From the NCBI GenBank assembly GCA_947631475.1, contig CANRLI010000004.1, forward strand, positions 1 through 41,372: a stretch of 41,372 nucleotides of DNA, written 5' to 3'. The notes under the pieces were generated by a model. That model was given only the letters and a program-made list of their open reading frames with translations, searched no databases and was not told the origin of the DNA. Origin of the DNA: an uncultured Bacilli bacterium. GTDB lineage: Bacteria; Bacillota_I; Bacilli_A; RF39; UBA660. Each line of letters begins with the position of its first letter. Position 1 is the first letter of the stretch. The position numbers and the translations under genes are program-made. This document shows, piece by piece, positions 1-25,672 of the stretch.

Positions 1-3
1 TGA

Positions 4-9
4 TATAAT
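4..9 (+). promoter_or_regulatory. extended -10 promoter for the 1138-residue gene
   Basis: TGATATAAT at 1-9 is a perfect extended -10 element (TG-n-TATAAT). The -35 region lies outside the window. Transcription should begin near position 16, which leaves a leader of under 20 nt before the ATG at 34. Confidence 0.7.
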
Positions 10-33
10 AATTTTTAGAATAGGGTGTTGTAC

Positions 34-3000
34 ATGGAAATGAATTATTTATTTGAATCTTTAAGTAAAAATAAAAATAATGAAAAGGTGGCTACTCAGC
101 TATTAGATAAAATTAATAATGAATTATTAAGTAATAATTGGTGTTTTAATAAAGATAATTTAGATAAAATATATCCTTATCTTTATGTATGTAATAAATA
201 TCAAATATTTGAATATTTAGAAAAAGAAATTAATAAGGAAGAATTTATTAATTTATTAGATTTGTCTGATATTGAAGGTTCAATGTTACTTTCTTTAACC
301 TCTAATTTACCTAAACCACGTAAAACACTTATTTTAAAATCAAATAAAATTAAAAAAAGTATATTAAATGGTGATCCTTTATTTTCATTAGAAGAAATAT
401 TAAAAGATTTAACTGTTGAAGAAATTAAACTACTACGTAAAAATACGGATATTGATAATTTATTAATTACTAAAGGTTTATGTTTTAATACTTTAAAGAA
501 TGTTACTAAAAAACGTATTTTAAAAGATGTTAATATTTTAAAATTATATAGTTTTCAATCAATTAATGAATTTGCTAGTAATTATGAATCTCCTGTAGAA
601 TTAGCTAATAATAAAGCTTTTTTAGATATATACTTTAGTAAAATGGATGATGATTATTCTTGTGATTGTAAGTTTATTAAAAGTTTATCTTATAAAATGG
701 TTTTATATATTCTTGCCAAATATCCCAAAGAAAATGTAATTTTACATTTATTAGTTAACACAGAAGGTTTAATCAAAAAAGAAATTTTAAAATATAAAGA
801 TATTGACAAAATAATTTTACGTCATAAAGTAGCAGATGTTCTTAATTGTTTACCTGCTTTCATGTTAAAAAATATTTTAGAACAAACAGATGGATTATTT
901 ATAGAACCAATTATTGATATATTGAAGACGATGTCTTTAGTTAAATTAAAAGAGATAGCTAAAAATAATAAAAATTATTATGATGAATTATTAAAACAAA
1001 TTACTAAAGCACGATTTGAAGCAACTATTTTTATTAATGCTTTACCTGATAATTTAATAAATGATCTTATAAAAAATAAATTAGAACAAATGAATTTAAA
1101 TGCGTTAAATAATTTGGTGAAAGCTTCTTCCATATTTAAAAAAGAGCTTTTAAAAAGACCGCATTTATGTTCTAAAATAATGGAAGAGATAACTTTAAAA
1201 AATTATCAACGAATTAATGATTTATTCATAAATGGTAAGTTTAGCGATGAGGAGAAAATTGTTTTTATTAGTAATATCAAAGAATTTAAAAATTCACAAA
1301 TATTAAATAAAATGATGGAAGGAATCCCTGTTTCAAGACGTAAATATTTTTATGATAATGACTTATTGAGAACGGAATTGTTAAATGAAGATACCTATCA
1401 ATTGGATGATTATGCCATTAGTTTTTATTTAAATAATATTGAAGAAGTTAATAATTTAAAAGCGCGAGTAATTCATGAATTATTAATCAAGACAGATTAT
1501 ACTTTTAATGAGAGAGTCTTGCAAAATGAGAAGGTTGTAGAAAAACTATTAATAGCAGCTAAAGAGGATCATAAAATTGTTACGGATATAATTAATGATA
1601 AAAATAGTTTAGTTAAATTTTTTAAGACAGCTAATACTTATAAATATTACGATAAAGAGTTATTAACAAAAATCTTAAAAGAATTAAATTATTCTGAAAA
1701 AAAAGAATTATGTACTAATGAATTAGTGGCTAATGTTTTAGAAGAAAAGTATTATGCACTTTATAAAAAAATGTTAAATAATAATGCTTTTTTAGTTAAT
1801 AATATTGATTTTAGAATTTTTGATAGTTATATTTTAGATATTAAACTAGCGATTATTAACTTTATTTGTAAATATCCTGATATGCAACAAAGTATTATTA
1901 GTATAGGTAAGGTTTATGATAAAGTTGCTGTATTAGTTAATGATTTGTATTATGCAACTAAAGATGTAAAGCAAAAGACAGTATTTAAAGATATCTTAAA
2001 ATTAATAGAAGAAGAATGTCTAAATAATAAAGGTAATATTTTGAAGTTACTTAAAGATATTAATTATGATAACAAGAAAGACTTTAATAGTTTAGTTACT
2101 TATTTTTTATATTGTATTCCACGTTTTTATCAAAATAATAATGAACCAGTAGCACGAATTAAGGTAATTAAAGAACCTTTAAATATCAAAGAGTTAATTA
2201 ATTATGAGAATAATTGTAATGAACAATTAACAAGCTTAATAAAAAGTGAAAATAGTGAAAAAGTCAAAGATTATTTCTTACAAAAACATTTTAAATTGAC
2301 AAGTGAGGAAGCATTAATAGTTATAAAAGGAATAAATATTGCTAAAATTGATTGTAATTTATATAATGAAGAATATGTTTTTTTAACTAATTTAAATAAT
2401 ATATTAAATACTGATTATATGGTTTTAAAAGAATTAGATGAAAATTATAAGGTAATCAGTATGAAAGATTCTTTTATAATAATGCATAATATTATGAAGA
2501 TGTTTGGTAAAATATATAATTATGAATTAAGAAGTAATAGTTTAAATAATGTGTCTTTATTAAAGTTTAAGGTTGATGAGGTTGATTTTTATCAAGCTAA
2601 GGATGAATTTTTATATTTAGTTACGAAGATAAATTTAGATGATTATTTATTAAAAAATAATAATTATATGCAAAGTTGGCATTATAAGATAAATGATGAT
2701 AAAACAAGTATTTTATGTCATTTAATTAGTAATGATCATATGATGTTTAATGATGATTATCTATTTGGGTTTAATGGTTTGAATGAAGATGGTTTAGATA
2801 AAATGGCGGTTTATAATAATGTGTCTTTATTAGATAATACCAAAGATTATTATGCTGTACCTAGTGAAGTTATTGATAGGACGAGAGATTATAATAATGC
2901 AATTTATTTAGATCCTTATGCTTTAAGAACTAATTTTAATGATGCTAATTTACCTAATATTGAACCTGATTATATTTTAGTTTCAGCTAAACGGTTAAGT

Positions 3001-3450
3001 GATAAAGTTTTTCTTCAAAAAATAGTTAAAATTAGTCTAGATTTTAAAACTAAGAAGCATAAAAATGGATTACCAGTAATAATAATTGATATAGAGAAAA
3101 ATTCACAAAAAGAACTTAACTATATTAATAAATTATTAATGAAATATAAATCTACTTGTGAGCCAATTTATTTAAGTAAGTTATTAACAATTTTAGAAAA
3201 TAATTATACAGCTTATCGTAATATAGATATAAGTGAAGCTAAGAAATATGATATTTATTTAATGTTAAATACGGTTATTCAAAGAATTTGTTATACTAAT
3301 TCGGCATATGAATTAAATGAAATATTAAAAATATTTGAAAATGAGTATAACAAATATAAAGATTTATCTAAAGAATATAAGTGTAATTTTGAATTAAATG
3401 TTATTAAAAAAGCTATTGAGACGAGACTTTATATTCTAAATAACTACTGA
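34..3450 (+). CDS. large conserved-type protein of unknown function (1138 aa)
   Basis: I do not recognise a named family. The protein is Asn/Lys/Leu/Ile-rich, with no signal peptide and no obvious membrane segment, so it is probably cytoplasmic. Residues from about 1 to 750 look like irregular helical repeats (short amphipathic helices with Leu/Ile every 3-4 residues). The last 350 residues look like a separate mixed alpha/beta domain: a SWHYKI segment, LFGFNGLN, then DRTRDYNNAIYLDPYALR and EPDYILVSA, followed by a hydrophobic VIIIDIE strand. From memory, similar C-terminal segments occur in large proteins of uncultured Bacillota, but I cannot attach a function. ATG 34 is chosen because AGGGTG at 22-27 is correctly spaced; GTG 25 sits inside that ribosome-binding site. 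It ends in TGA. No terminator separates it from the next gene, which has its own promoter. Confidence 0.8.
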   Translation: MEMNYLFESLSKNKNNEKVATQLLDKINNELLSNNWCFNKDNLDKIYPYLYVCNKYQIFEYLEKEINKEEFINLLDLSDIEGSMLLSLTSNLPKPRKTLILKSNKIKKSILNGDPLFSLEEILKDLTVEEIKLLRKNTDIDNLLITKGLCFNTLKNVTKKRILKDVNILKLYSFQSINEFASNYESPVELANNKAFLDIYFSKMDDDYSCDCKFIKSLSYKMVLYILAKYPKENVILHLLVNTEGLIKKEILKYKDIDKIILRHKVADVLNCLPAFMLKNILEQTDGLFIEPIIDILKTMSLVKLKEIAKNNKNYYDELLKQITKARFEATIFINALPDNLINDLIKNKLEQMNLNALNNLVKASSIFKKELLKRPHLCSKIMEEITLKNYQRINDLFINGKFSDEEKIVFISNIKEFKNSQILNKMMEGIPVSRRKYFYDNDLLRTELLNEDTYQLDDYAISFYLNNIEEVNNLKARVIHELLIKTDYTFNERVLQNEKVVEKLLIAAKEDHKIVTDIINDKNSLVKFFKTANTYKYYDKELLTKILKELNYSEKKELCTNELVANVLEEKYYALYKKMLNNNAFLVNNIDFRIFDSYILDIKLAIINFICKYPDMQQSIISIGKVYDKVAVLVNDLYYATKDVKQKTVFKDILKLIEEECLNNKGNILKLLKDINYDNKKDFNSLVTYFLYCIPRFYQNNNEPVARIKVIKEPLNIKELINYENNCNEQLTSLIKSENSEKVKDYFLQKHFKLTSEEALIVIKGINIAKIDCNLYNEEYVFLTNLNNILNTDYMVLKELDENYKVISMKDSFIIMHNIMKMFGKIYNYELRSNSLNNVSLLKFKVDEVDFYQAKDEFLYLVTKINLDDYLLKNNNYMQSWHYKINDDKTSILCHLISNDHMMFNDDYLFGFNGLNEDGLDKMAVYNNVSLLDNTKDYYAVPSEVIDRTRDYNNAIYLDPYALRTNFNDANLPNIEPDYILVSAKRLSDKVFLQKIVKISLDFKTKKHKNGLPVIIIDIEKNSQKELNYINKLLMKYKSTCEPIYLSKLLTILENNYTAYRNIDISEAKKYDIYLMLNTVIQRICYTNSAYELNEILKIFENEYNKYKDLSKEYKCNFELNVIKKAIETRLYILNNY

Positions 3451-3453
3451 AAA

Positions 3454-3482
3454 TTGCGCATATTTTATGAAGGTGTTATAAT
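3454..3482 (+). promoter_or_regulatory. promoter, TTGCGC / TGTTATAAT
   Basis: The -35 TTGCGC (3454-3459) and -10 TATAAT (3477-3482) are separated by 17 nt, with the extended TG at 3474-3475. Transcription would start near 3489, downstream of the ATG at 3487, so it fixes the start of the next gene at 3505. Confidence 0.7.
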
Positions 3483-3504
3483 CTAAATGATGTGGGGAAT
3501 AGGT

Positions 3505-4143
3505 ATGGCAAAAAGTAAGATGTCATTTTATGAAATGTTTTATACATTTTTAATAGGGTGTTTTTTTGGCTGGATTGTTGAAGGATTGTGGTCTTTAATT
3601 GCCAAACATGTATTGATTAATCATACTTCTTTAGTAATTGGACCTTTCGATTTAGTATATGGAATCGCCGCAGTTGTTTTAACAATGGTTTTATATCGCT
3701 TAAAAAATAAAAGTAATTTTGAGGTATTTTGTATTTCTTTTGCTACGGGTTCTATTTTAGAATATATTTTGAGCTATGTTATGGAAGTAACATTTGGTTT
3801 TGTAGCTTGGAATTATAAGATGAAACCATTTAATTTAAATGGACGTATTTGCTTAATGTATTCTATATTTTGGGGAATTCTTGGAGTAATATGGATTAAA
3901 TTAGTATACCCTAAAATAAAAAAATTAATTGATAAGATTCATGCAGCTGAAGGAACTATATTTATGAGATTGATGATTGTCTTTTTGATATTTGATGCTT
4001 TATTAACTTTAGGAGCAATTGAAAGAGGAAAAAAATATGAACAAGGTGTTCAACCTCAAAATAAAATTGAAGAGATAATTGATAAATACTTTGGGGTTGA
4101 ATATTTAAATAATATATTTAATAACCGATGGAATAAAAAATAA
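3505..4143 (+). CDS. PF06541-type integral membrane protein (putative ABC-transporter type IV / CmpB family)
   Basis: A 212-residue polytopic membrane protein with about five hydrophobic segments. It carries the features I associate with PF06541: FFGWIVEGLW near the N-terminus, LVIGPFDLVYG, GSILEYILSYVMEVTFGFVAWNY, and FNLNGRICL. The family is common in Bacillota and is named a putative ABC transporter permease, but its biochemical role is unproven. No ATPase partner is present here. The start at 3505 (RBS GGGG at 3494-3497) is preferred over ATG 3487, because the promoter places transcription initiation at about 3489. It is followed after 18 nt by an MFS transporter and is probably cotranscribed with it. 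Confidence 0.8.
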   Translation: MAKSKMSFYEMFYTFLIGCFFGWIVEGLWSLIAKHVLINHTSLVIGPFDLVYGIAAVVLTMVLYRLKNKSNFEVFCISFATGSILEYILSYVMEVTFGFVAWNYKMKPFNLNGRICLMYSIFWGILGVIWIKLVYPKIKKLIDKIHAAEGTIFMRLMIVFLIFDALLTLGAIERGKKYEQGVQPQNKIEEIIDKYFGVEYLNNIFNNRWNKK

Positions 4144-4161
4144 TTTTTATGAGGTGGGCAC

Positions 4162-5361
4162 GTGAAAGAAATTCAAAAAATAAATTTTACTACTAAAATA
4201 TTTCCTCTATTTAGTGGAATGTCAATGGATTTATTATTTTGGGCAGCTATTAATATGATTTTTTTAACAACTGTTAAAGGTCTTAATGCTTCACAAATAA
4301 GTGTAATGACATCAATTAGTTCGCTAGCAGCAATTGTTATTTATCCTGTAGCGGTGAAGATTATAAAAAAAATAGGAAATATTAATTCTGTTAGATTAGG
4401 AACAATACTTCTTTTGATTGGAGCTTCGTTATTAACTTTTTCTAAAGCTTTTTTATTAATTATATTTGGCAAAGTTGCATATGAAATATCTTTTATCTTT
4501 AAAAATATGGATAATGTTGTTTTAAGAAAAAATTTAAAGTATATGAATAAAACAGATGACTTTATCAAAATTCAAGGGAAGGCGACATTTTTCTATTCCT
4601 TTTTGACATTGATAATAGCATTTATATCAGGTTTTATATTTAATATTAACAATTATTTGCCAATGATTCTTTGTACAATTATTTGTGTTATTGATGTTAT
4701 TCTTTCTTTTTGTTTATATGAATGCCAGGGAGAAAATATAAAAGAAGAAAAAACTAAAAATAAAATGTCTATGTCTAAAATAATTATGTTGATTATTATC
4801 CTTTATGGTTTAACTTTTGCTGTTATTAATCTTGGACAGTCTAATAGTCAATTATTTATTCAATATGAATTGAATTCATATTTAAAGATTGATACAATTG
4901 CTATTATTTTATCGGTTATTTTAACTCTTTCACGATTGGTAAGATTTGCAAGTAATTTTCTTTTCAATAAATTCTATAATGTTAAAAATTCAAAATTATT
5001 GTATACTATTTCTTCCTTATTAGCTTTAGCCTATGTATTGTTAATTATGGGTGGTTTAATACCTGTAAAAATTTTAAATATAGTTTTAATGACGATAGGA
5101 TTTTGTATCTTTTTAGGAGTTAGAGATCCATTTCTTAATTATACGAAAACTTTTCTTTTAAATAATTGTCATGAAGAATATCACCAAAATGCAATGGCAT
5201 ATTTAACAACTTCACAGCAAATTGGTAATTTTGTGGTAAGTGGGATTATTGCATTAATTTTACTTAAAGCAAGTATTATGTATGTTATGATATTCTTGTT
5301 ATTAGTTGCTATATTTGATATCTTCCTAGTTAAAAAAATATATAGTTTGGTAGAAAAATAA
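4162..5361 (+). CDS. MFS-type transporter
   Basis: A 399-residue protein with about 12 hydrophobic segments. It has no long soluble domain, only a charged central loop near residues 190-205 (EGENIKEEKTKNK) that divides two six-helix halves, as expected for the major facilitator superfamily. The SGMSMDLLFW segment and the loop after helix 2 (KIIKKIGNINSVRLG) fit an MFS A-like position. Substrate cannot be deduced. It starts at GTG 4162 behind GAGGTGG, 18 nt after the PF06541 gene, and ends at a strong bidirectional terminator. Confidence 0.8.
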   Translation: MKEIQKINFTTKIFPLFSGMSMDLLFWAAINMIFLTTVKGLNASQISVMTSISSLAAIVIYPVAVKIIKKIGNINSVRLGTILLLIGASLLTFSKAFLLIIFGKVAYEISFIFKNMDNVVLRKNLKYMNKTDDFIKIQGKATFFYSFLTLIIAFISGFIFNINNYLPMILCTIICVIDVILSFCLYECQGENIKEEKTKNKMSMSKIIMLIIILYGLTFAVINLGQSNSQLFIQYELNSYLKIDTIAIILSVILTLSRLVRFASNFLFNKFYNVKNSKLLYTISSLLALAYVLLIMGGLIPVKILNIVLMTIGFCIFLGVRDPFLNYTKTFLLNNCHEEYHQNAMAYLTTSQQIGNFVVSGIIALILLKASIMYVMIFLLLVAIFDIFLVKKIYSLVEK

Positions 5362-5362
5362 T

Positions 5363-5396
5363 ATAAAAACATCTTTAAATATGAAGATGTTTTTAT
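5363..5396 (+). terminator. bidirectional intrinsic terminator after the MFS gene
   Basis: An inverted repeat of ATAAAAACATCTT and AAGATGTTTTTAT with an 8-nt loop. It has A-rich and T-rich flanks on the two sides and follows the MFS stop codon directly. Confidence 0.85.
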
Positions 5397-5515
5397 ATGG
5401 TTATTACTTAAAAAATGAGATATTTGATGATAGATTATTATTTTGTCATTGTTTAAACTCATTAATGTGTCTCGAAAAGTATTTTGAACACTAATATTTT
5501 TTTTACAAGCTTTTA
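5397..5515. other. short intergenic stretch with no gene
   Basis: An AT-rich stretch between the MFS terminator and the next promoter. I see no convincing ORF, RNA fold or operator in it. Confidence 0.6.
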
Positions 5516-5524
5516 TGATATAAT
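5516..5524 (+). promoter_or_regulatory. extended -10 promoter for the Nudix gene
   Basis: TGATATAAT is a perfect extended -10. No recognisable -35 hexamer lies 16-18 nt upstream. The start codon is 29 nt downstream. Confidence 0.7.
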
Positions 5525-5553
5525 GTGATTAGTTAAAGTATGGGTGTATTTGT

Positions 5554-6081
5554 ATGAAAGAAATATTATATAATTATGATAATTTAAAAGCCGAAGATAT
5601 TGATGAAGTTGTCATTAGAACAAAAGGTTTGATTATTAATAGTAGTAATGAAATAACTCTCGGTTATTCTCATAAAACTTATCAATTCCCAGGTGGTCAT
5701 TTAGAGAATGGCGAGAGTTTAGAAGAGTGTTTGTTAAGAGAGATAGAAGAAGAAACAGGGATTAAAATAAAAGATGCAATATTAAAACCATTTGAAAAAA
5801 TTACATATTATAGTAAAAATTATCATGGTTCTGGTAAAAATAGGGAAAATGATATATATTTTTATATTGTTAATACGGATGCTAAGTTTGATATGAATAA
5901 TTCTAAGTTAGATGAGTGGGAAAAAGAAGGTAATTTTATGGTTAAAACTTTGCCGATGGAAAACATTGAACAAGTATTAATAGATAGCTTATCTGATAAT
6001 CCAATTAACAAGGTTATTGTTGAGGAAATGTTGGAAATTATTAAGGAATATAAGAAAATAACTAATATAGATGTAGATTAA
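5554..6081 (+). CDS. Nudix hydrolase
   Basis: A 175-residue soluble protein with a complete Nudix box at about residues 49-71: G-HLENG-E-SLEECLL-REIEEE-TGI matches GX5EX7REUXEEXGU. Members hydrolyse nucleoside diphosphates linked to other moieties and use the box glutamates to bind Mg2+/Mn2+. The exact substrate cannot be read from the sequence; FPGGHLENGESLEEC is typical of MutT/ADP-ribose-type enzymes. ATG 5554 follows GGGTG in a short leader. The gene is monocistronic by its own promoter and downstream hairpin. Confidence 0.9.
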   Translation: MKEILYNYDNLKAEDIDEVVIRTKGLIINSSNEITLGYSHKTYQFPGGHLENGESLEECLLREIEEETGIKIKDAILKPFEKITYYSKNYHGSGKNRENDIYFYIVNTDAKFDMNNSKLDEWEKEGNFMVKTLPMENIEQVLIDSLSDNPINKVIVEEMLEIIKEYKKITNIDVD

Positions 6082-6152
6082 AATTCTATGCCAAAGAGGA
6101 TTGGTAGTTGATAAATTTAATAAATAAATTACTTTGTTATTGGTAATATTGA

Positions 6153-6190
6153 TATGAACTCTGTTTCTTGATATAGAAATGGGGTTTTTA
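6153..6190 (+). terminator. intrinsic terminator of the Nudix gene
   Basis: A hairpin of AACTC..TTTCT with AGAAA..GGGTT (two-base internal mismatch, loop TGATAT) followed by TTTTT. It lies upstream of the promoter of the next gene. Confidence 0.65.
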
Positions 6191-6215
6191 GATGATTAAT
6201 ATGATTGTTTATTTA

Positions 6216-6244
6216 TTGACTATTAGTGATTTCTACTATAAAAT
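6216..6244 (+). promoter_or_regulatory. promoter TTGACT-17-TAAAAT
   Basis: The -35 TTGACT (6216-6221) and -10 TAAAAT (6239-6244) are 17 nt apart. Predicted initiation near 6251 lies downstream of the ATG at 6192 and just upstream of GGGAGTG / GTG 6270. This supports the later start for the transporter gene. Confidence 0.7.
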
Positions 6245-6269
6245 TAAGTGGATTAAAGGGAGTGAGATT

Positions 6270-7121
6270 GTGAGAGAAATAATTGTTGAAACAACGTTAG
6301 ATAGTATAAAATTAATTCCTTTTTTGTTTTTGGCTTTTTTAGTCATTGAATATTTTGAACATAAGTTAAGTAGTAAAAGTAAAAAGATAGTAAGTAAAGC
6401 TGGTAAATTTTCCCCTTTAATTGGAAGTTTGTTGGGTTTGATACCCCAATGTGGTTTTTCTGTAGTAGCAACTAATTTATATATTACGAGAATTATTTCA
6501 TTAGGAACATTAGTTGCAATATACTTATCGACAAGTGATGAAATGTTACCAATAATGTTATCACAAAAGGTAGCTTTTAAAACAATTTTAAGTATTTTAT
6601 TAATAAAGTTTATAGTTGGTATGATTGTGGGGTATTTGATTGACTTTTGTTTACGTAAAAATAAAAAAGTCAATAATATATCTTATGAAATTTGTCATGA
6701 TGAACACTGTGGGTGTGAAAAAGGAGATAGTTTAATTAAGTCAAGTATAATTCATACCTTAAAAACTTTAGGTTATTTATATTTAATTACTTTTATTCTT
6801 AATTTGTTATTTAAGTATTTAGGATCTCAAGTATTAAATAAAGTATTTTTAGATAATACAATTTTTACACCATTTATTACTAGTTTAATAGGTTTAATAC
6901 CTAATTGTGGCTCAAGTATTATGATTACAGAGTTATATTTAAATAAGACGATTAATTATGCTAGTATGTTATCAGGATTGTTAACAGGATGTGGAGTGGC
7001 CTTGTTAGTGTTATTTAAAGCTAATAAAAATGTTAAAGAAAATATTAAAATATTAGGAATAATATATGGTATTGGTGCTTGTATTGGCGTTATTTTAGAA
7101 TTATTAGGTTACTTATTATAA
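6270..7121 (+). CDS. ArsP_2 / putative manganese transporter family membrane protein
   Basis: A 283-residue membrane protein built as two similar halves, each with a Cys signature: SLLGLIPQCGFSVV in the first and SLIGLIPNCGSSIM in the second. STSDEMLP, TELYL and LLTGCGVALLVLFK are also present. This arrangement matches the family annotated as putative manganese transporter (PF11449, ArsP_2). A loop between the halves, ICHDEHCGCEKGD, is rich in His and Cys and could bind metal. The start is taken as GTG 6270, with GGGAGTG in front and the promoter at 6216-6244; the in-frame ATG 6192 lies upstream of transcription initiation, and the extra residues look unlike the family. It sits directly before a cation P-type ATPase, consistent with a metal-homeostasis pair. 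Confidence 0.8.
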   Translation: MREIIVETTLDSIKLIPFLFLAFLVIEYFEHKLSSKSKKIVSKAGKFSPLIGSLLGLIPQCGFSVVATNLYITRIISLGTLVAIYLSTSDEMLPIMLSQKVAFKTILSILLIKFIVGMIVGYLIDFCLRKNKKVNNISYEICHDEHCGCEKGDSLIKSSIIHTLKTLGYLYLITFILNLLFKYLGSQVLNKVFLDNTIFTPFITSLIGLIPNCGSSIMITELYLNKTINYASMLSGLLTGCGVALLVLFKANKNVKENIKILGIIYGIGACIGVILELLGYLL

Positions 7122-7144
7122 ATATAGATTTTTATATTAAGGCA

Positions 7145-7153
7145 TGGTATAAT
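7145..7153 (+). promoter_or_regulatory. extended -10 promoter for the P-type ATPase leader
   Basis: TGGTATAAT (TG-n-TATAAT). It gives a predicted leader of about 115 nt, far longer than the roughly 20-nt leaders of most other units here. Confidence 0.6.
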
Positions 7154-7159
7154 TTATTT

Positions 7160-7274
7160 ATCAAGATAAGAATATATTTGATGTAATTGGTATGAATTAA
7201 ATATCTAGTTATAAATTAAGTAAGAGACTTGTCTGTCATGATACAGGAGTCTTTTTTTAGAAAGAGGATATTAA
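7160..7274 (+). promoter_or_regulatory. 5' leader with internal intrinsic terminator, possible metal-responsive attenuator
   Basis: Between the promoter at 7145-7153 and the ATPase ATG lies a hairpin at 7225-7252: AGACT pairs with AGTCT and CTGT with ACAG around a CATGAT loop, followed by seven Ts. Only 16 nt separate the T run from the ATG, with no room for another promoter, so ATPase expression from this promoter must pass the terminator. I could not match the upstream part to yybP-ykoY, M-box, NiCo or another riboswitch consensus. It may instead be simply the terminator of the upstream gene with leaky read-through. Confidence 0.4.
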
Positions 7275-9875
7275 ATGCAATATTATAGTGATAGTAGTGA
7301 TGATGTTTTAAAGCAATTGAATTCTAGTAAAAGAGGATTAACTGAAAAAAAAGTTAAGGATAATTTAGCTAAGTATGGGAAAAATGAACTGCCATCTGGG
7401 CAAAAGGATAGTTTGTTAAAACTTTTTTTGTCACAATTTACGAATCCAATTGAAATAATTTTAGTTATAACAGTTATTTTATCTTTCTTAGCTCATGAAG
7501 TGGTGGATGCTATAGCACTGGTTATTATTATTTTAGTTGATGTATCGTTAGGAACTTTTGAAGAGTGGCGTGCTCGTAAAGATGCTGAAAGTTTAATTAA
7601 TATGATTAAAGTAACCACCAAAGTAATACGTGATAATCGGGAAGTCATAATTAATTCTAAAGATGTTACCGTGGGAGATATTATGGTATTAGAAAGTGGT
7701 GATAAGATCAGTGCTGATGCGCGAATTATCGAGTGTCATAATTTTCAAGTTGATGAATCACCTTTAACGGGAGAAAGTATAGCAGTTATTAAAACTAGTG
7801 ACACTTTAATGAAAGATATCTCTTTATCAGAAAGAAAGAATATGGTATTTGCAGGAACTTCGGTAATAACAGGGCGAGCCCAAGTGATAGTCGTTAATGT
7901 TGGTCTAAATACAGAAATAGGGCATATTGCTGATAAAGTAACAAATACTAAGAAAGAAAAATCACCTTTAACAATTAGAACTGAAAAATTTTCAAAACAA
8001 ATAAGTATGATTATTTTATTGGTGGCGATAATTACAACTGTTGTATTAGTAGTCAAAGGCTATCCTTTAAATGAAATATTTTTGTCAGTTATTGCTTTAT
8101 CAGTTTCAGCAATGCCTGAGGGTTTGCCTTTAGCTTTAACTATGGCTTTAACGATATCTTCAAAAAGAATGGCTAAGAAAAAGGTTATTGTAAAAAATTT
8201 GAATGCTGTTGAATCTTTAGGTAGTTGTACGGTTATTGCTTCTGATAAAACAGGAACATTGACAGTTAACGAACAGACGGCTAAAGAAATTGTAATGGCC
8301 GATGGCGATACGTTTGATGTTACAGGAACAGGCTATAATGGTCTTGGGGAAGTTAAACCACGTGGAAAAGCTCTGATAAAAAAAGCGGAATATATTGCCT
8401 GGTTAGGTGCTATTAATAATGAGGCTCATTTTGAAAAGACTGGGGATAAATGGGAATCTTTTGGGGATTCAATAGATATTGCCTTTTTAAGTCTAGCAGA
8501 AAAGCTTAATATTGCTGAAAAACCAGAGATAATAGAAAGAATTCCTTATGAATCAGAAAATCAATATTCAGCTGTTTTTTATAAAAAAGGAAATGATACA
8601 TATTGTACAGTTAAAGGCTCTTTAGAAAAAGTAATGGCCTTTTCTGAAGAAAATCGAAAGTATTATCAACAAAATGAGGAGTTAACAGCGAAAGGCTACA
8701 GGGTTATTGCTTTAGCCGATGGTAAAGTTAAGGGAACAGATAAAAAAGATATTGTTAATTTACAATTTATCGGTTTAGTAGCTTTTATAGACCCAATTAG
8801 AGTTGAAGTAAAAGCTTCTATAAAGGAGTGCAAGAATGCAGGAATAAAAGTAATAATGATTACAGGAGACCATCCTTTAACAGCATATGCTATTGCCAGT
8901 GAACTCGGCTTGTGTAAAAATGCAAGTGAAGTAGCGACAGGCAAAGATATTAACGAATATCGTAATAAGGGCGAAGATGCTTTTGATGAATTTGTTGCAC
9001 GAATTAAAGTTTTTTCAAGAGTCACGCCAATTGATAAATTAGATATTGTCAATTCATTAAAAAGACAGGGTGAGTTTGTAGCTGTAACTGGTGATGGAGT
9101 AAATGATGCCCCAGCTATTAAATCCGCTAATATTGGGATTGCCATGGGAAGTGGAACAGATGTAGCTAAAGAAACGGCATCAATGATTGTGGCTGATGAT
9201 AATTTTACTTCGTTAGTTGCTGGAGTTAAAGAAGGAAGAACAGCTTATAATAATATTAGAAAAATAACATTATTTTTACTAAGTTGTGGTTTTGCTGAAG
9301 TTTGTTTTTTCTTATTATCGATTGGTTTTGGTTATGATATACCTTTGGTAGCTATTCAATTATTATGGTTAAATATAGTAACAGATGGTTTACAAGATAT
9401 AGCTTTATCTTTTGAAAAATCAGAAAAAGATATAATGAATGAACAACCACGAAATACTAAAGAATCTTTGTTTTCTAAAGATTTAATGTTGGAAGTAAGT
9501 ATATTAGGAATTACAATAAGTACAGTTATTTTCTTAGTTTGGAAAGTGTTAAGAGATAGAGGAACTGATCTTGTGGTATCACGAGCTATTATCATGATGC
9601 TAATGGTGTTTATTCAAAATGTTAATGTTTTAAATTGTCGTAGTGAAAAAATAACGCTTTTTAAAAAATCTCTTTTGGATAATCCGTTAGTAATTATAAC
9701 GGTTCTTGGATCAATTATGTTACAAATAATAATGTCAGAGATCCCTGTAACAGCGATGTTTTTAAAAGTAACACCATTACCATTATCTATCATTTTTAAT
9801 TTATTATTATTGTCATTAATCATAATTGTGGTATTTGAAATATATAAATTAGTGTATCGTTTAAAAAGGAGGTGA
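7275..9875 (+). CDS. P2-type cation-transporting ATPase (probably Ca2+)
   Basis: An 866-residue P-type ATPase of normal length. It has an N-terminal cation-ATPase domain, TGES at residues 165-168 (actuator), AMPEGLPLAL at about 280-288 (TM4 ion site), the phosphorylated aspartate D324 in SDKTGTLT, MITGDHPLTA, and VTGDGVNDAPAIKSA in the P domain. A C-terminal helix bundle follows with LWLNIVTDGLQDIALSFE. It couples ATP hydrolysis to cation export. PEGLP and NxxTD favour Ca2+, but DGLQDIALSFEKSEKDIM also resembles the K+-exchanging P2C group, so specificity is open; Mn2+ is conceivable given its neighbour. RBS GAGGA precedes ATG 7275. The stop codon lies inside the RBS of the next gene. Confidence 0.92.
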   Translation: MQYYSDSSDDVLKQLNSSKRGLTEKKVKDNLAKYGKNELPSGQKDSLLKLFLSQFTNPIEIILVITVILSFLAHEVVDAIALVIIILVDVSLGTFEEWRARKDAESLINMIKVTTKVIRDNREVIINSKDVTVGDIMVLESGDKISADARIIECHNFQVDESPLTGESIAVIKTSDTLMKDISLSERKNMVFAGTSVITGRAQVIVVNVGLNTEIGHIADKVTNTKKEKSPLTIRTEKFSKQISMIILLVAIITTVVLVVKGYPLNEIFLSVIALSVSAMPEGLPLALTMALTISSKRMAKKKVIVKNLNAVESLGSCTVIASDKTGTLTVNEQTAKEIVMADGDTFDVTGTGYNGLGEVKPRGKALIKKAEYIAWLGAINNEAHFEKTGDKWESFGDSIDIAFLSLAEKLNIAEKPEIIERIPYESENQYSAVFYKKGNDTYCTVKGSLEKVMAFSEENRKYYQQNEELTAKGYRVIALADGKVKGTDKKDIVNLQFIGLVAFIDPIRVEVKASIKECKNAGIKVIMITGDHPLTAYAIASELGLCKNASEVATGKDINEYRNKGEDAFDEFVARIKVFSRVTPIDKLDIVNSLKRQGEFVAVTGDGVNDAPAIKSANIGIAMGSGTDVAKETASMIVADDNFTSLVAGVKEGRTAYNNIRKITLFLLSCGFAEVCFFLLSIGFGYDIPLVAIQLLWLNIVTDGLQDIALSFEKSEKDIMNEQPRNTKESLFSKDLMLEVSILGITISTVIFLVWKVLRDRGTDLVVSRAIIMMLMVFIQNVNVLNCRSEKITLFKKSLLDNPLVIITVLGSIMLQIIMSEIPVTAMFLKVTPLPLSIIFNLLLLSLIIIVVFEIYKLVYRLKRR

Positions 9876-21300: not shown

Positions 21301-23043
21301 ATGAATTTAAAAGATTTATATATTAATTTTTTTATAGAAAAGGGGCATAAACAAATACCAAGTGCACCAGTTGTTCCTGAAAATGATCCATCAGTTTTAT
21401 TTAATACAGCAGGAATGCAACCATTAATCCCTTATTTGATGGGACAACCACATCCATATGGAACTAGATTAGTTGATTATCAAAAATGCGTTAGAACCAA
21501 TGATTTAGATGAAATAGGTGATGCTGTTCATCATACTTTTTTTGAAATGCTTGGTAACTGGAGTTTAGGTGATTATTTTAAAGAAGAAAGTATATCTTGG
21601 AGTTTTGAGTTTTTAACAACGAGGTTAAATATCCCTGTAGAAAGATTAGCTGTTACGGTATTTGCGGGAAATGAGGTTATTCCATTTGATGAAGTAAGTT
21701 ATAATAAGTGGTTAAGTTTGGGCATAGATAAAGATAAGATTGCTAAAACTGTCGATGATAACTTTTGGATAGCTGGAGAAACAGGACCTTGTGGTGGAGA
21801 TAGTGAAATCTTTTATTTTAGAAGTTCCGATGAAATTCCTAAAGTATTTGATCCTGAGGATACGAGATGGGTAGAGATTTGGAATAATGTCTTTATGCAA
21901 TATTATAAAGATGAAAAGGGGGTAGTTACTGAATTACCGAAAAAAAATGTTGATACAGGAATGGGTGTTGAAAGAACAACAGCTATTTTAGAAGGGGTTA
22001 ACGATAATTATTTATCTAGTATTTGGAAAGATGTTATTGATTTAATTAGTGAGATAGCCAATGTTCCATACCAAAATCATGAAAAAAGTATGCGTATTAT
22101 TGCTGATCATATAAGAACAGCTGTCTTTATATCAGCAGATCCAGCAGGAATTAAACCTTCTAATACTGATCAAGGCTATATTTTAAGAAGGTTAATTAGA
22201 AGAGCGATACGTCATGCTAAAACTTTAGGAATTGATATTAATAGTAATTGGGAAGAACAGATAGCAAGATTAATTTTGGATAAATATAAAGTTTATTATA
22301 AAGAGTTAGAAGATAATTATAATGTAGTTTTAGATGTTTTAAGAAATGAAAAAGTTAAATTTGGTCATACTTTAGAAAAAGGTTTAAGAGAATTTGAAAA
22401 AGTTACTAAAGATGGTCAAAATATTGATGGTAAAACTGCTTTTCATTTATTTGATACTTATGGATTTCCATTGGAATTAACTATTGAGTTAGCTAAGGAA
22501 CGTAATTTACAAGTAGATGTCGATGGATATAAGGCGATGTTTGAAGAACATCAAGAAAAATCACGTACAGCTTCCGCAGGTAAATTTAAAGGTGGATTAG
22601 CGGGAAATGGGGAAATTGAAACTAAATATCATACGGCAACACATTTATTAAATGCAGCATTAAAATTAGTAGTTGGACCTGATGTTCATCAAAAAGGTTC
22701 TAATATTACAGCGGAAAGAATGAGATTTGATTTTAGTTGTGATCACAAGTTAACTTTAGAAGAAAAAGAACGTACGGAAGCAATTGTCAATGAGTGGATT
22801 AGTGAAGGCTTACCAGTAACGGTTGAAGAAATGCCTAAAGAAGAAGCTATTAAATCAGGAGCTGAATGTATGTTTATTGAAAAATATCCCGATGTTGTAA
22901 CTGTTTATAAAATAGGGGATGTTTCTAAAGAGTTATGTGGTGGACCACATGTTAAAAATACCAGTGAATTAGGTCATTTTAGAATTATTAAAGAAGAAGC
23001 ATCTTCAGCAGGAGTTAGAAGAATTAAAGGAGTATTAGAATGA
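21301..23043 (+). CDS. alaS: alanyl-tRNA synthetase, short form lacking the C-Ala domain
   Basis: A 580-residue AlaRS that charges tRNA-Ala with alanine. The class II catalytic core (residues 1 to about 240: NTAGMQPLIPYLMG, HHTFFEMLGNWSLGDYFK, GMGVERTTAIL) and the tRNA-recognition helices are complete. The editing domain is present with both metal-ligand pairs, H444-TAT-H448 and C546-GGP-H550. It ends at AGVRRIKGVLE, where the usual roughly 875-residue enzyme continues into the C-Ala domain. TGA is followed at once by a strong terminator, and no C-Ala fragment follows in any frame, so this is a natural short form and not a frameshift. It is under a GCU T-box. Confidence 0.93.
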   Translation: MNLKDLYINFFIEKGHKQIPSAPVVPENDPSVLFNTAGMQPLIPYLMGQPHPYGTRLVDYQKCVRTNDLDEIGDAVHHTFFEMLGNWSLGDYFKEESISWSFEFLTTRLNIPVERLAVTVFAGNEVIPFDEVSYNKWLSLGIDKDKIAKTVDDNFWIAGETGPCGGDSEIFYFRSSDEIPKVFDPEDTRWVEIWNNVFMQYYKDEKGVVTELPKKNVDTGMGVERTTAILEGVNDNYLSSIWKDVIDLISEIANVPYQNHEKSMRIIADHIRTAVFISADPAGIKPSNTDQGYILRRLIRRAIRHAKTLGIDINSNWEEQIARLILDKYKVYYKELEDNYNVVLDVLRNEKVKFGHTLEKGLREFEKVTKDGQNIDGKTAFHLFDTYGFPLELTIELAKERNLQVDVDGYKAMFEEHQEKSRTASAGKFKGGLAGNGEIETKYHTATHLLNAALKLVVGPDVHQKGSNITAERMRFDFSCDHKLTLEEKERTEAIVNEWISEGLPVTVEEMPKEEAIKSGAECMFIEKYPDVVTVYKIGDVSKELCGGPHVKNTSELGHFRIIKEEASSAGVRRIKGVLE

Positions 23044-23047
23044 TATG

Positions 23048-23082
23048 AACCCCGTTTCTTGGACAAAGAAACGGGGGTTTTT
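23048..23082 (+). terminator. strong intrinsic terminator of the alaS operon
   Basis: ACCCCGTTTCTT pairs with AAGAAACGGGG around GGACA, followed by T5. It is the most GC-rich hairpin in the window. Confidence 0.93.
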
Positions 23083-23116
23083 ATATAAAAGACTTTTAAT
23101 TTGTTTAGTTTTATTT

Positions 23117-23122
23117 TATAAT
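23117..23122 (+). promoter_or_regulatory. -10 element of the two-HD gene
   Basis: TATAAT with no TG extension and a weak TTTTAA 17 nt upstream. Initiation near 23129 excludes the in-frame start at 23125. Confidence 0.45.
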
Positions 23123-23154
23123 ATTTGCATTATGTCAAAAAGGGGATGTCACCT

Positions 23155-25485
23155 ATGAAATTAACATTATATCGGCGAATGTGTTTAGAAGAAGCCAATA
23201 AAACTATAAAGGAAATGGCTTTTTTTAAGCCTGATAGTGAGATAGCTTTAACGAGAAAATGGTTTTCTACATCTTTATTTCGTTCGCATTATTTTAAAAG
23301 TCCATTTTATAATGGTGAGTCAGTTATATTAAAAGTTTTGGTAAATGATACTTATTTTAAAAAAATCTTTGAAGAAGGAACCTTTATTACTAAAGAACCT
23401 AATGGTTTTTATGCAAGTAATGATTTGCCAGATGATATTTTGTATGCTAAAGCGCATCGAACAATAAATAGTTTATATAATATTGGTATTTTAAATCTGA
23501 CGGAATTAAATCAAAATCATTTAGGGATTGAACTAGTTGAAGATTCAGCGTATTGTTCTTTGTTGGAAAAAGATTTATTAGGACAAAAAATAACATCTTT
23601 AATTAGCAATAAAAATATTGATAGTCCTTGGGAATTTTATTTTCAACTTCCTTTTGATACGGCTATTTTAGCTTTAAAATATCAGTGTTTTATGATTGAG
23701 GGAATTAACCCAATTATTAAAAAGTTACATTTGTCTAAGGATTTAAAAGAACTTCAACAAATTAATTTAAATAAATATCATGTTACTTTAAAAGTTTGTT
23801 TTCATCCTTCAATTAAACAGTGTTCAAAATTTAATGAATATAATATGGCTTTAAATCAAAGTGAAATTGTGAAATTTTTACCATTTATTTCCCAAATTAA
23901 GGTTGTCGATGTTAAAGAATTAAATGATAAAGAAGATACTAAGGATTTTATAAATATAACGGGTAATAATACTTATACTAAACATCAACAAGTATCTTAT
24001 CAATCATATCCTTATTTAGATTATCAATTATTTGAAGAAGGAACTTTAAAATTATGTAAATCTCATTTTAAATTAGATAGTTTAAAAGAGATAATTCCTA
24101 ATTTAAAAGACACGCAAAATATTAGTCAAGTTGATCCAAGACATATTGATATGTTAGATACGCATATTGAAAAAGTTATTAACATGAGTAATTTAGTCAT
24201 AAATTATTTTAAAGACCAGGGATTTATGATTGATAGTGAAATGTTAGTTTGGTTAAAATGGAGTCTTTTAATTCATGATTTAGGTAAACCATATTGTTCT
24301 TGTTTATTTATGACTTCGCGATATTCTCAATTTGGGGATAAAAGTATTTTTCTAAAGCAGATTATAGATGAATTATTAGCACCAGACATTTCTTTTTATA
24401 TTAAAACAATCTGTCGAATTGGGACTTATTCTTCGCAAACAGGATCTAAAAAATTAAGAAAATTAATTGCTGAATTATTAAAAGAAATTTTATCTGTTTT
24501 AAAAGTGACGGAAGAAGAAGCTTATGTAGTTTTAAATAAAATTTTATATACATCTTTATTATTTAAAGTTTCTCATAGTGCTTCTTTAAAACCACGTTCT
24601 TTTTGTGCTGCTTATGTAGATGATTTACAATTTTTTGATCGGATTAATGATATTCTTTTAGATAATTTAAAAAATGATTTTGTTTTTCCATATATGGACT
24701 TGTATTATGGAGTTATGGATGCTTATACGCGTATAGTAGAAGAATATTATAATAATTTTGCTTATAGTCCAGTTGAACAGGTACAGAAGATGTTAAAAAG
24801 TGATTATCAGGATTTATCTTTAGTTTATAATTGTAAAAATAAGTATGTTTTACATTTAGATGATTTAAAACAATATAATTATGATGAATTAATCTGTGCT
24901 TATTTTAAAGATAATAGTCCGTTGATAAAAGAATATTTATCGCAAAAAGAGGAAAAAAAGCAAGATAATCAACGTAATCATGGCAGTCTTCATTGTCAAA
25001 AAGTGGCAATTTTAAGTTATTTATTAGGTAAATTAAATAATCTAGATGATGAAGCAATCGAAATCCTTCTCTTAGCTAGTAAATACCATGATATAGGTCG
25101 TCAAGTTAGTGATGAAAATCATGGTTGGCAGAGTGTTAAAATGTTAAAAGATTCGGCTGTTATGACAAATTATCAAAAGTGCGAATATGTTTACTTTTTA
25201 ATTGAAGCTCATGAAGTTAAAGATGAAGATAATTTTAGTATTTTAGCAAAATATAATATTGATCATCAAAAGGCCTTATTTTTATTAAGTTTATTTAAGG
25301 ATGCGGATGCATTAGATCGAACTCGTTTTGATTCGTTAAGAAATTATGGTAGTTGTCTAAATATAAAATATTTAAGAAATAATAATAGTAAGTTGCTTAT
25401 TAAATTTAGTTATTTATTAAATGCACAATATAAACAAGATGGTAAAGAACTTAGCCCTTCAATTAAACATTTAGTTTTAAAATAG
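23155..25485 (+). CDS. protein with two HD-type phosphohydrolase domains, unknown function
   Basis: A 776-residue soluble protein I cannot assign to a named family. Residues 1 to about 320 have no recognisable domain. A first HD-like domain has SQVDPRHIDMLDTHIEKV, then LLIHDLGKP (H374-D375). A second, C-terminal one is more complete: H609-GSLH613, KYHDIGR (H645-D646), DENHGWQSV, EAHEV and KDADALDRTR (D716, D718). The second set matches the metal-binding pattern H...HD...H...D of HD phosphohydrolases, which act on nucleotides or cyclic nucleotides. GGGG at 23142-23145 supports ATG 23155. It is monocistronic, between the alaS terminator and dnaG. Confidence 0.75.
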   Translation: MKLTLYRRMCLEEANKTIKEMAFFKPDSEIALTRKWFSTSLFRSHYFKSPFYNGESVILKVLVNDTYFKKIFEEGTFITKEPNGFYASNDLPDDILYAKAHRTINSLYNIGILNLTELNQNHLGIELVEDSAYCSLLEKDLLGQKITSLISNKNIDSPWEFYFQLPFDTAILALKYQCFMIEGINPIIKKLHLSKDLKELQQINLNKYHVTLKVCFHPSIKQCSKFNEYNMALNQSEIVKFLPFISQIKVVDVKELNDKEDTKDFINITGNNTYTKHQQVSYQSYPYLDYQLFEEGTLKLCKSHFKLDSLKEIIPNLKDTQNISQVDPRHIDMLDTHIEKVINMSNLVINYFKDQGFMIDSEMLVWLKWSLLIHDLGKPYCSCLFMTSRYSQFGDKSIFLKQIIDELLAPDISFYIKTICRIGTYSSQTGSKKLRKLIAELLKEILSVLKVTEEEAYVVLNKILYTSLLFKVSHSASLKPRSFCAAYVDDLQFFDRINDILLDNLKNDFVFPYMDLYYGVMDAYTRIVEEYYNNFAYSPVEQVQKMLKSDYQDLSLVYNCKNKYVLHLDDLKQYNYDELICAYFKDNSPLIKEYLSQKEEKKQDNQRNHGSLHCQKVAILSYLLGKLNNLDDEAIEILLLASKYHDIGRQVSDENHGWQSVKMLKDSAVMTNYQKCEYVYFLIEAHEVKDEDNFSILAKYNIDHQKALFLLSLFKDADALDRTRFDSLRNYGSCLNIKYLRNNNSKLLIKFSYLLNAQYKQDGKELSPSIKHLVLK

Positions 25486-25515
25486 AACAAGTCTCTTCTA
25501 GGAGATTTGTTTTTT
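25486..25515 (+). terminator. intrinsic terminator after the two-HD gene
   Basis: AACAAGTCTC pairs with GAGATTTGTT (one GU) around TTCTAG, followed by a T run. Confidence 0.85.
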
Positions 25516-25547
25516 GACATTTTAATTTGTAAAAATTGAGTGAATAT

Positions 25548-25577
25548 TTGCTTTAAAGAGCAAAATTGTGGTAAAAT
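25548..25577 (+). promoter_or_regulatory. upstream dnaG promoter TTGCTT-18-TAAAAT with extended TG
   Basis: The -35 TTGCTT (25548-25553), then TGGTAAAAT (25569-25577). It gives a leader of about 90 nt that contains the inverted repeat at 25611-25635. Confidence 0.55.
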
Positions 25578-25610
25578 ATTCAAGAATTTTGAGTTTTTTG
25601 GTAGAAATTT

Positions 25611-25635
25611 TAGGTAAAAAAAAGGAAATTACCTA
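25611..25635. repeat. inverted repeat TAGGTAA-11-TTACCTA upstream of dnaG
   Basis: Perfect 7-bp arms with an 11-nt purine spacer. It lies in the -35 region of the proximal -10 element and inside the leader of the distal promoter. It could be an operator or a transcribed hairpin. Confidence 0.6.
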
Positions 25636-25641
25636 GTAAGC

Positions 25642-25647
25642 TATAAT
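25642..25647 (+). promoter_or_regulatory. proximal -10 element of dnaG
   Basis: TATAAT, 25 nt before ATG 25673 and without a recognisable -35 or TG extension. It may need an activator at the adjacent inverted repeat. Confidence 0.4.
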
Positions 25648-25672
25648 AATTATAAGTGAGGGGTGATTTTTT

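Follow-up and report, generated by a model that had tools for sequence, protein, structure and literature searches.

A predicted ADP-ribosyltransferase-like region joined to two HD domains in an accessory protein of uncultured Bacilli

For HD domains of the type found in CCA-adding enzymes, phosphatase activity has been described in M. tuberculosis and 2',3'-cyclic phosphodiesterase activity in E. coli (PMC10673834 and its reference 54). The passages found in two surveys, one of nicotinamide adenine dinucleotide (NAD) and ADP-ribose systems (PMC9503650) and one of HD proteins (PMC8177086), do not tie HD domains to ADP-ribose processing, and no paper describing a family that combines ADP-ribosyltransferase (ART) and HD domains was found in the open-access literature searched. 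Here we describe a 776-residue protein encoded in a stretch of 41,372 nucleotides (the window; contig CANRLI010000004.1 of assembly GCA_947631475.1) from an uncultured Bacilli bacterium, in which an N-terminal ART-like region is followed by a middle HD domain (HD1) and a C-terminal HD domain (HD2), a layout that is an undescribed combination of known parts.

The open reading frame at 23155-25485 contains no internal stops and is a real gene, because its relatives (26-48% identity) share its start and length; since the relatives also begin at M1, the ATG at 23155 was preferred to an upstream TTG at 23125. A first-pass annotation had proposed that the protein contains two HD domains, of which the second looked complete and the first perhaps partial, and all three points hold. 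The regions of the protein are as follows.

23155-25485, + strand: gene for the ART-like/HD/HD protein, 776 residues (open reading frame and full-length relatives)
23155-23544, + strand: ART-like region a, residues 1-130 (Foldseek search of the N-terminal model, conservation)
23626-23916, + strand: alpha/beta region b, residues 158-254, modelled with high confidence (secondary-structure order)
24115-24654, + strand: HD1, residues ~321-500, an HD domain of the CCA/poly(A)-polymerase type with an incomplete ligand set (profile search against the PDB, alignment)
24979-25434, + strand: HD2, residues 609-760, with the complete metal-site pattern H613, H645-D646, H656, H686, D716 and the signature KDADALDRxR (Pfam HD, conservation, profile)

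Judged by its residues, HD2 is a complete HD hydrolase site pattern. It matches the Pfam HD family above the cut-off (E 5.5e-6), contains the metal ligands of the superfamily (H...HD...D) and reads H609-x3-H613, H645-D646-I-G-R, H656, H686 and K715-D-A-D-A-L-D-R-x-R724, with H609, H613, H645-D646, H656, H686, D716 and D718 invariant in all six full-length proteins and in 31 HD2 relatives. The closest solved structures in a profile search are an HD-GYP phosphodiesterase (4mcw, E 3.6e-5) and YedJ (3gw7, E 2e-4), and HD2 is the best-conserved part of the protein between the two clades of full-length members (33%, against 16-30% elsewhere).

The relatives of HD2 recur beside ART and NAD-salvage functions. 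Of 386 genomes examined from the bacterial family of the window, 45 contain a match, in nearly every case to the HD2-type domain; some of the matching proteins are stand-alone domains of ~210-260 residues and many are ~500 residues long with an extra C-terminal domain. In two giant proteins (L051 and L037) the Pfam family ADPrib_exo_Tox (PF03496; E 1.2e-14 and 7.5e-16) lies directly before an HD2-type domain. A domain with an R-S-ExE motif likewise precedes the HD domain in plasmid proteins of Alkaliphilus, Aneurinibacillus, Jeotgalibacillus, Pontibacillus, Brevibacillus and Paenibacillus (six proteins were read directly, and Paenibacillus polymyxa pSC2 by tblastn coverage); these domains receive no Pfam name, and their assignment as ARTs rests on the motif. 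Such megaplasmid proteins (e.g., WP_212382818 and WP_272444146) are annotated just as HD-domain or hypothetical proteins, and the phage matches in a tblastn search with the R-S-ExE region were unnamed products. Further, plasmids of Mesobacillus foraminis and Paenibacillus sp. 37 carry a row of genes for an NAD-dependent deacetylase, Sir2, a stand-alone HD2 relative, nicotinate phosphoribosyltransferase (NAPRT) and an isochorismatase, in which Pfam confirmed Sir2 and NAPRT and did not confirm the first deacetylase; the row is possibly an undescribed NAD-linked operon. Based on the independent ART fusions and the Sir2/NAPRT associations, a role in NAD or ADP-ribose chemistry is the best-supported inference for the HD2 clade, whether or not the ART region of the window protein is active.

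Several other features of these relatives were observed. The C-terminal domain of the ~500-residue proteins (L005, L012, L022, L028, L031 and others) has DarT-like SILxxGILS and DExYV motifs and matches no Pfam family convincingly; its best match in the PDB is a macro-domain protein (E 0.37, not significant), which we take to be a DarTG fusion. Besides the ART and HD domains, L051 (positions 2-9064, at least 3021 residues) and L037 have both a HELGH motif resembling that of peptidases and a match to SMODS that falls below threshold. The deacetylase-Sir2-HD-NAPRT rows lie at L157 4000-8008 and L158 1680-5626, on two different Bacillota megaplasmids, with the isochorismatase-family gene downstream.

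The N-terminal ~320 residues had been described as having no recognised fold, and Pfam and NCBIfam searches indeed assign nothing to residues 1-320. Structure prediction revises that description, as Foldseek returns ARTs and the N-terminal third likely has an ART fold. The order of elements characteristic of ARTs (LYR, then STS, then an acid) was seen in the sequence ahead of any structure result, as a conserved LYR...KWF[S/T]xS motif in which R7 is invariant and the second element is STS in four of the six full-length proteins and TES in two. Region a also has L5-Y6-R7, R34-K35-W36-F37, S40, F47 and H101 invariant, and the window protein has acidic residues (D93/D94) where the catalytic glutamate of an ART would be expected. 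The 86 residues between R7 and position 93 equal the span between R1490 and E1576 of RhsP2 (PMC12340436). For the AlphaFold N-terminal model, built from the six-sequence alignment, the best match in the PDB is the RhsP2 toxin domain (E 3.8e-3, prob 1.00), and nearly all of the top matches are ARTs, including PARP2, PARP16 and exotoxin A domain III, with 18 Tpt1/KptA chains among the first 22 rows. Tpt1 was matched with the full-length model as well, and in a viral structure library the matches, among which are unannotated proteins, include DarT, PARPs, an ADP-ribosyltransferase and an RNA 2'-phosphotransferase. The placement of the ART-like region at residues 1-130 follows the order of elements and not printed Foldseek residue pairs. 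Additionally, the element order of residues 158-254 parallels that of residues 3-128, and region b is possibly a second, degenerate ART lobe in the model; the two regions were not significantly similar when compared by sequence (hhalign P 0.13), and a comparison with a home-made profile aligned just two columns, too few to be informative.

A number of results weigh against an active ART in this region, or against an ART at all. None of the Foldseek matches to the N-terminal region reaches E <=1e-3, and a PDB sequence search with the region found nothing. Profile searches did not link it to the ART domains of the plasmid or giant proteins, whether by hhalign against the plasmid ARTs (P 0.12) or the DarT-like C-terminal domains (P 0.09) or by HMMER with a combined ART profile. 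The mean predicted local distance difference test (pLDDT) score of the N-terminal model is ~72, falling below 50 over much of 76-105 and in parts of 27-49, which are the putative active-site loops. Position 93 is aspartate in the window protein, glutamate in three of the full-length proteins and glycine in two; because the putative catalytic acid is aspartate in the window protein and is replaced by Gly/Pro in L010 and L011, transferase activity may have been lost.

HD1 is related to the HD domain of CCA-adding enzymes. Its profile matches a poly(A)/CCA polymerase (3wfo, E 4.9e-6), and it also matches CCA enzymes and 190-residue HD proteins of the same bacterial family. In an alignment of these with the full-length members, H337, H374-D375 and GKP are invariant, and the GHF..GH, YHD and LKxAD ligands of the relatives are lost or changed; the position of the aspartate ligand is His474 in the window protein and asparagine in L003. 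Since its conservation between the two clades (30%) is close to that of HD2, HD1 is under constraint but is probably not a standard CCA-type phosphohydrolase. No PolyA_pol head domain was matched by Pfam in the window protein. As had been proposed, the protein does not fit GdpP, HD-GYP, RelA or Cas3, with no GYP motif after the HD motif in residues 609-776 and no RelA or GdpP features; Cas3 was rejected as only 45 residues of HD1, a short HD motif, match below the cut-off and the neighbouring genes are alaS, dnaG, rpoD and trmK.

The reading that we prefer, with about an even chance of being right, is that of a cytosolic accessory ART-HD enzyme. The ART-superfamily region (residues 1-254) would bind NAD+ or an ADP-ribosylated ligand, HD1 would serve chiefly as a retained scaffold that may bind RNA ends, and HD2 would be the working metal-dependent phosphohydrolase. 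Its target would be a phosphoester or phosphoanhydride on a product, ADP-ribose-linked or at an RNA end, that the ART half makes or holds. We infer NAD binding, the coupling between the halves and the substrate, as well as the ART fold, the last from the models. The first-pass annotation had suggested an undescribed second-messenger or nucleotide hydrolase; an undescribed hydrolase is possible, while second messengers, (p)ppGpp, cyclic dinucleotides and dNTPs find no support and the HD2 relatives point to NAD and ADP-ribose.

A more specific scheme is RNA-end healing, in which the ART half would strip a 2'-phosphate using NAD+ in the manner of Tpt1/KptA, HD1 would have a 2',3'-cyclic phosphodiesterase of the CCA type as its ancestor and HD2 would clear the ADP-ribose cyclic phosphate that results. 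The recurrence of Tpt1/KptA among the Foldseek matches and the CCA type of HD1 fit this scheme, given that CCA HD domains clean tRNA 3' ends (PMC10673834), but we consider it improbable as the TM-scores of the Tpt1 alignments are poor, most HD1 ligands are missing and neither the N-terminal winged-helix lobe nor the Arg-His-Arg-Arg tetrad of Tpt1/KptA was recognised in the sequence by eye, the tetrad not having been mapped on a structural superposition. It is also unlikely that HD2 is the sole enzyme, a nucleotide or second-messenger hydrolase to which the N-terminal half and HD1 are attached as inactive sensor domains. In favour of this reading, conservation is highest in HD2, no other domain retains an intact site, the solved structures closest to HD2 are those of an HD-GYP phosphodiesterase and YedJ, and L010 and L011 have lost the acid of the ART region; against it, it does not account for why HD2 relatives are repeatedly found with ART domains and with Sir2/NAPRT genes, and the GYP motif and the RelA/GdpP features are absent.

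The full-length members (n = 6, including the window protein) all belong to one family of uncultured Bacilli and come from genomes G000, G001, G008 and G283 (43-48% identity) and from G273 and G170 (26-27%). No further N-terminal homologs were found in samples of the family, order, class and phylum (~900 distinct genomes), in phages or in viral contigs, and those weak matches that were inspected proved to be unrelated proteins. In the genus of the window the alaS-dnaG interval (window 23044-25672; loci L139-L149) is a variable cargo site, holding only a lipoprotein gene in G004, a gene for a ~500-residue protein in G003 and G006, and the lipoprotein gene, the gene described here and more in G001. 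Members of the other clade have the gene between thiI-like and FtsW-like genes, upstream of and convergent with the latter. At this thiI-SASP-ftsW locus genome G406 has no more than a 3' remnant, beside the FtsW-like gene (L080, contig 82, 1254-1430), which is evidence of gene loss. Given the variable cargo and the remnant, the gene is accessory and losable. Two flanking features were noted by eye.

23044-23154, + strand: terminator hairpin of alaS, promoter-like TATAAT region and a purine-rich, ribosome-binding-like stretch before the ATG at 23155
25486-25520, + strand: terminator-like hairpin and T-run 3' of the stop

A T-run also accompanies the hairpin 3' of alaS. The hairpins and T-runs after alaS and after the stop, with the TATAAT-like and purine-rich stretches before the ATG, suggest that the gene is monocistronic, in its own terminator-bounded transcription unit. 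The alanyl-tRNA synthetase gene itself (window 21301-23043) encodes only 580 residues; the protein stops after the tRNA_SAD domain, and its length is similarly reduced genus-wide. A role in conflict, as a toxin, defence or counter-defence gene whose product alters or restores RNA or protein via ADP-ribosylation, would suit the patchy occurrence in the alaS-dnaG interval, the remnant in G406 and the fact that relatives occur on megaplasmids and within giant multidomain proteins, but is very unlikely for a monocistronic gene with no antitoxin-like neighbour, no recognised export signal and only weak Cas3/Cas10d HD-motif matches in PADLOC.

Beyond the window, one HD clade may be devoted to NAD/ADP-ribose chemistry, as the repeated fusion of ART with HD domains and the Sir2-HD-NAPRT gene order suggest. 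A bolder extension, offered tentatively and judged less likely than not, is an NAD-dependent bifunctional family of the Bacillota in which an ART attaches ADP-ribose or takes a 2'-phosphate and HD2 of the same chain processes the product, the window protein being its most elaborate member with an extra CCA-type HD domain. If such an HD clade is real, it would supply testable substrates for many proteins annotated just as 'HD domain-containing'.

With SidE/Dup effectors (phosphodiesterase and mono-ADP-ribosyltransferase; compared by literature description) the window protein would share the pairing of ART chemistry with a phosphodiesterase domain, whereas it lacks a deubiquitinase domain and its HD2 profile does not match their phosphodiesterase; membership of this phosphoribosyl-ubiquitin group was rejected for want of sequence support, the HD2 profile having no such PDB match at E up to 1 in a comparison at the sequence level only. 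HD2 resembles HD-GYP phosphodiesterases and YedJ/YpgQ-like HD hydrolases through its matches to 4mcw and 3gw7, but lacks the GYP motif and has its own KDADALDRxR signature. HD1 has the HxxD...H...LLxHDxGKP pattern in common with the HD domain of CCA-adding enzymes and poly(A) polymerases (3wfo), while the nucleotidyltransferase head is absent and the ligands beyond H-HD are mostly missing or replaced. The N-terminal region resembles the ART superfamily (the RhsP2 toxin domain, Tpt1/KptA and PARPs) in predicted fold and motif order, and differs in having no sequence-profile match, a catalytic glutamate that is not conserved and two fused HD domains. The ART-HD proteins of Bacillota megaplasmids have a single HD domain and an R-S-ExE ART with intact acids, and their N-terminal parts show no detectable homology to that of the window protein; they share with it a C-terminal HD2-type domain placed after an ART-like domain.
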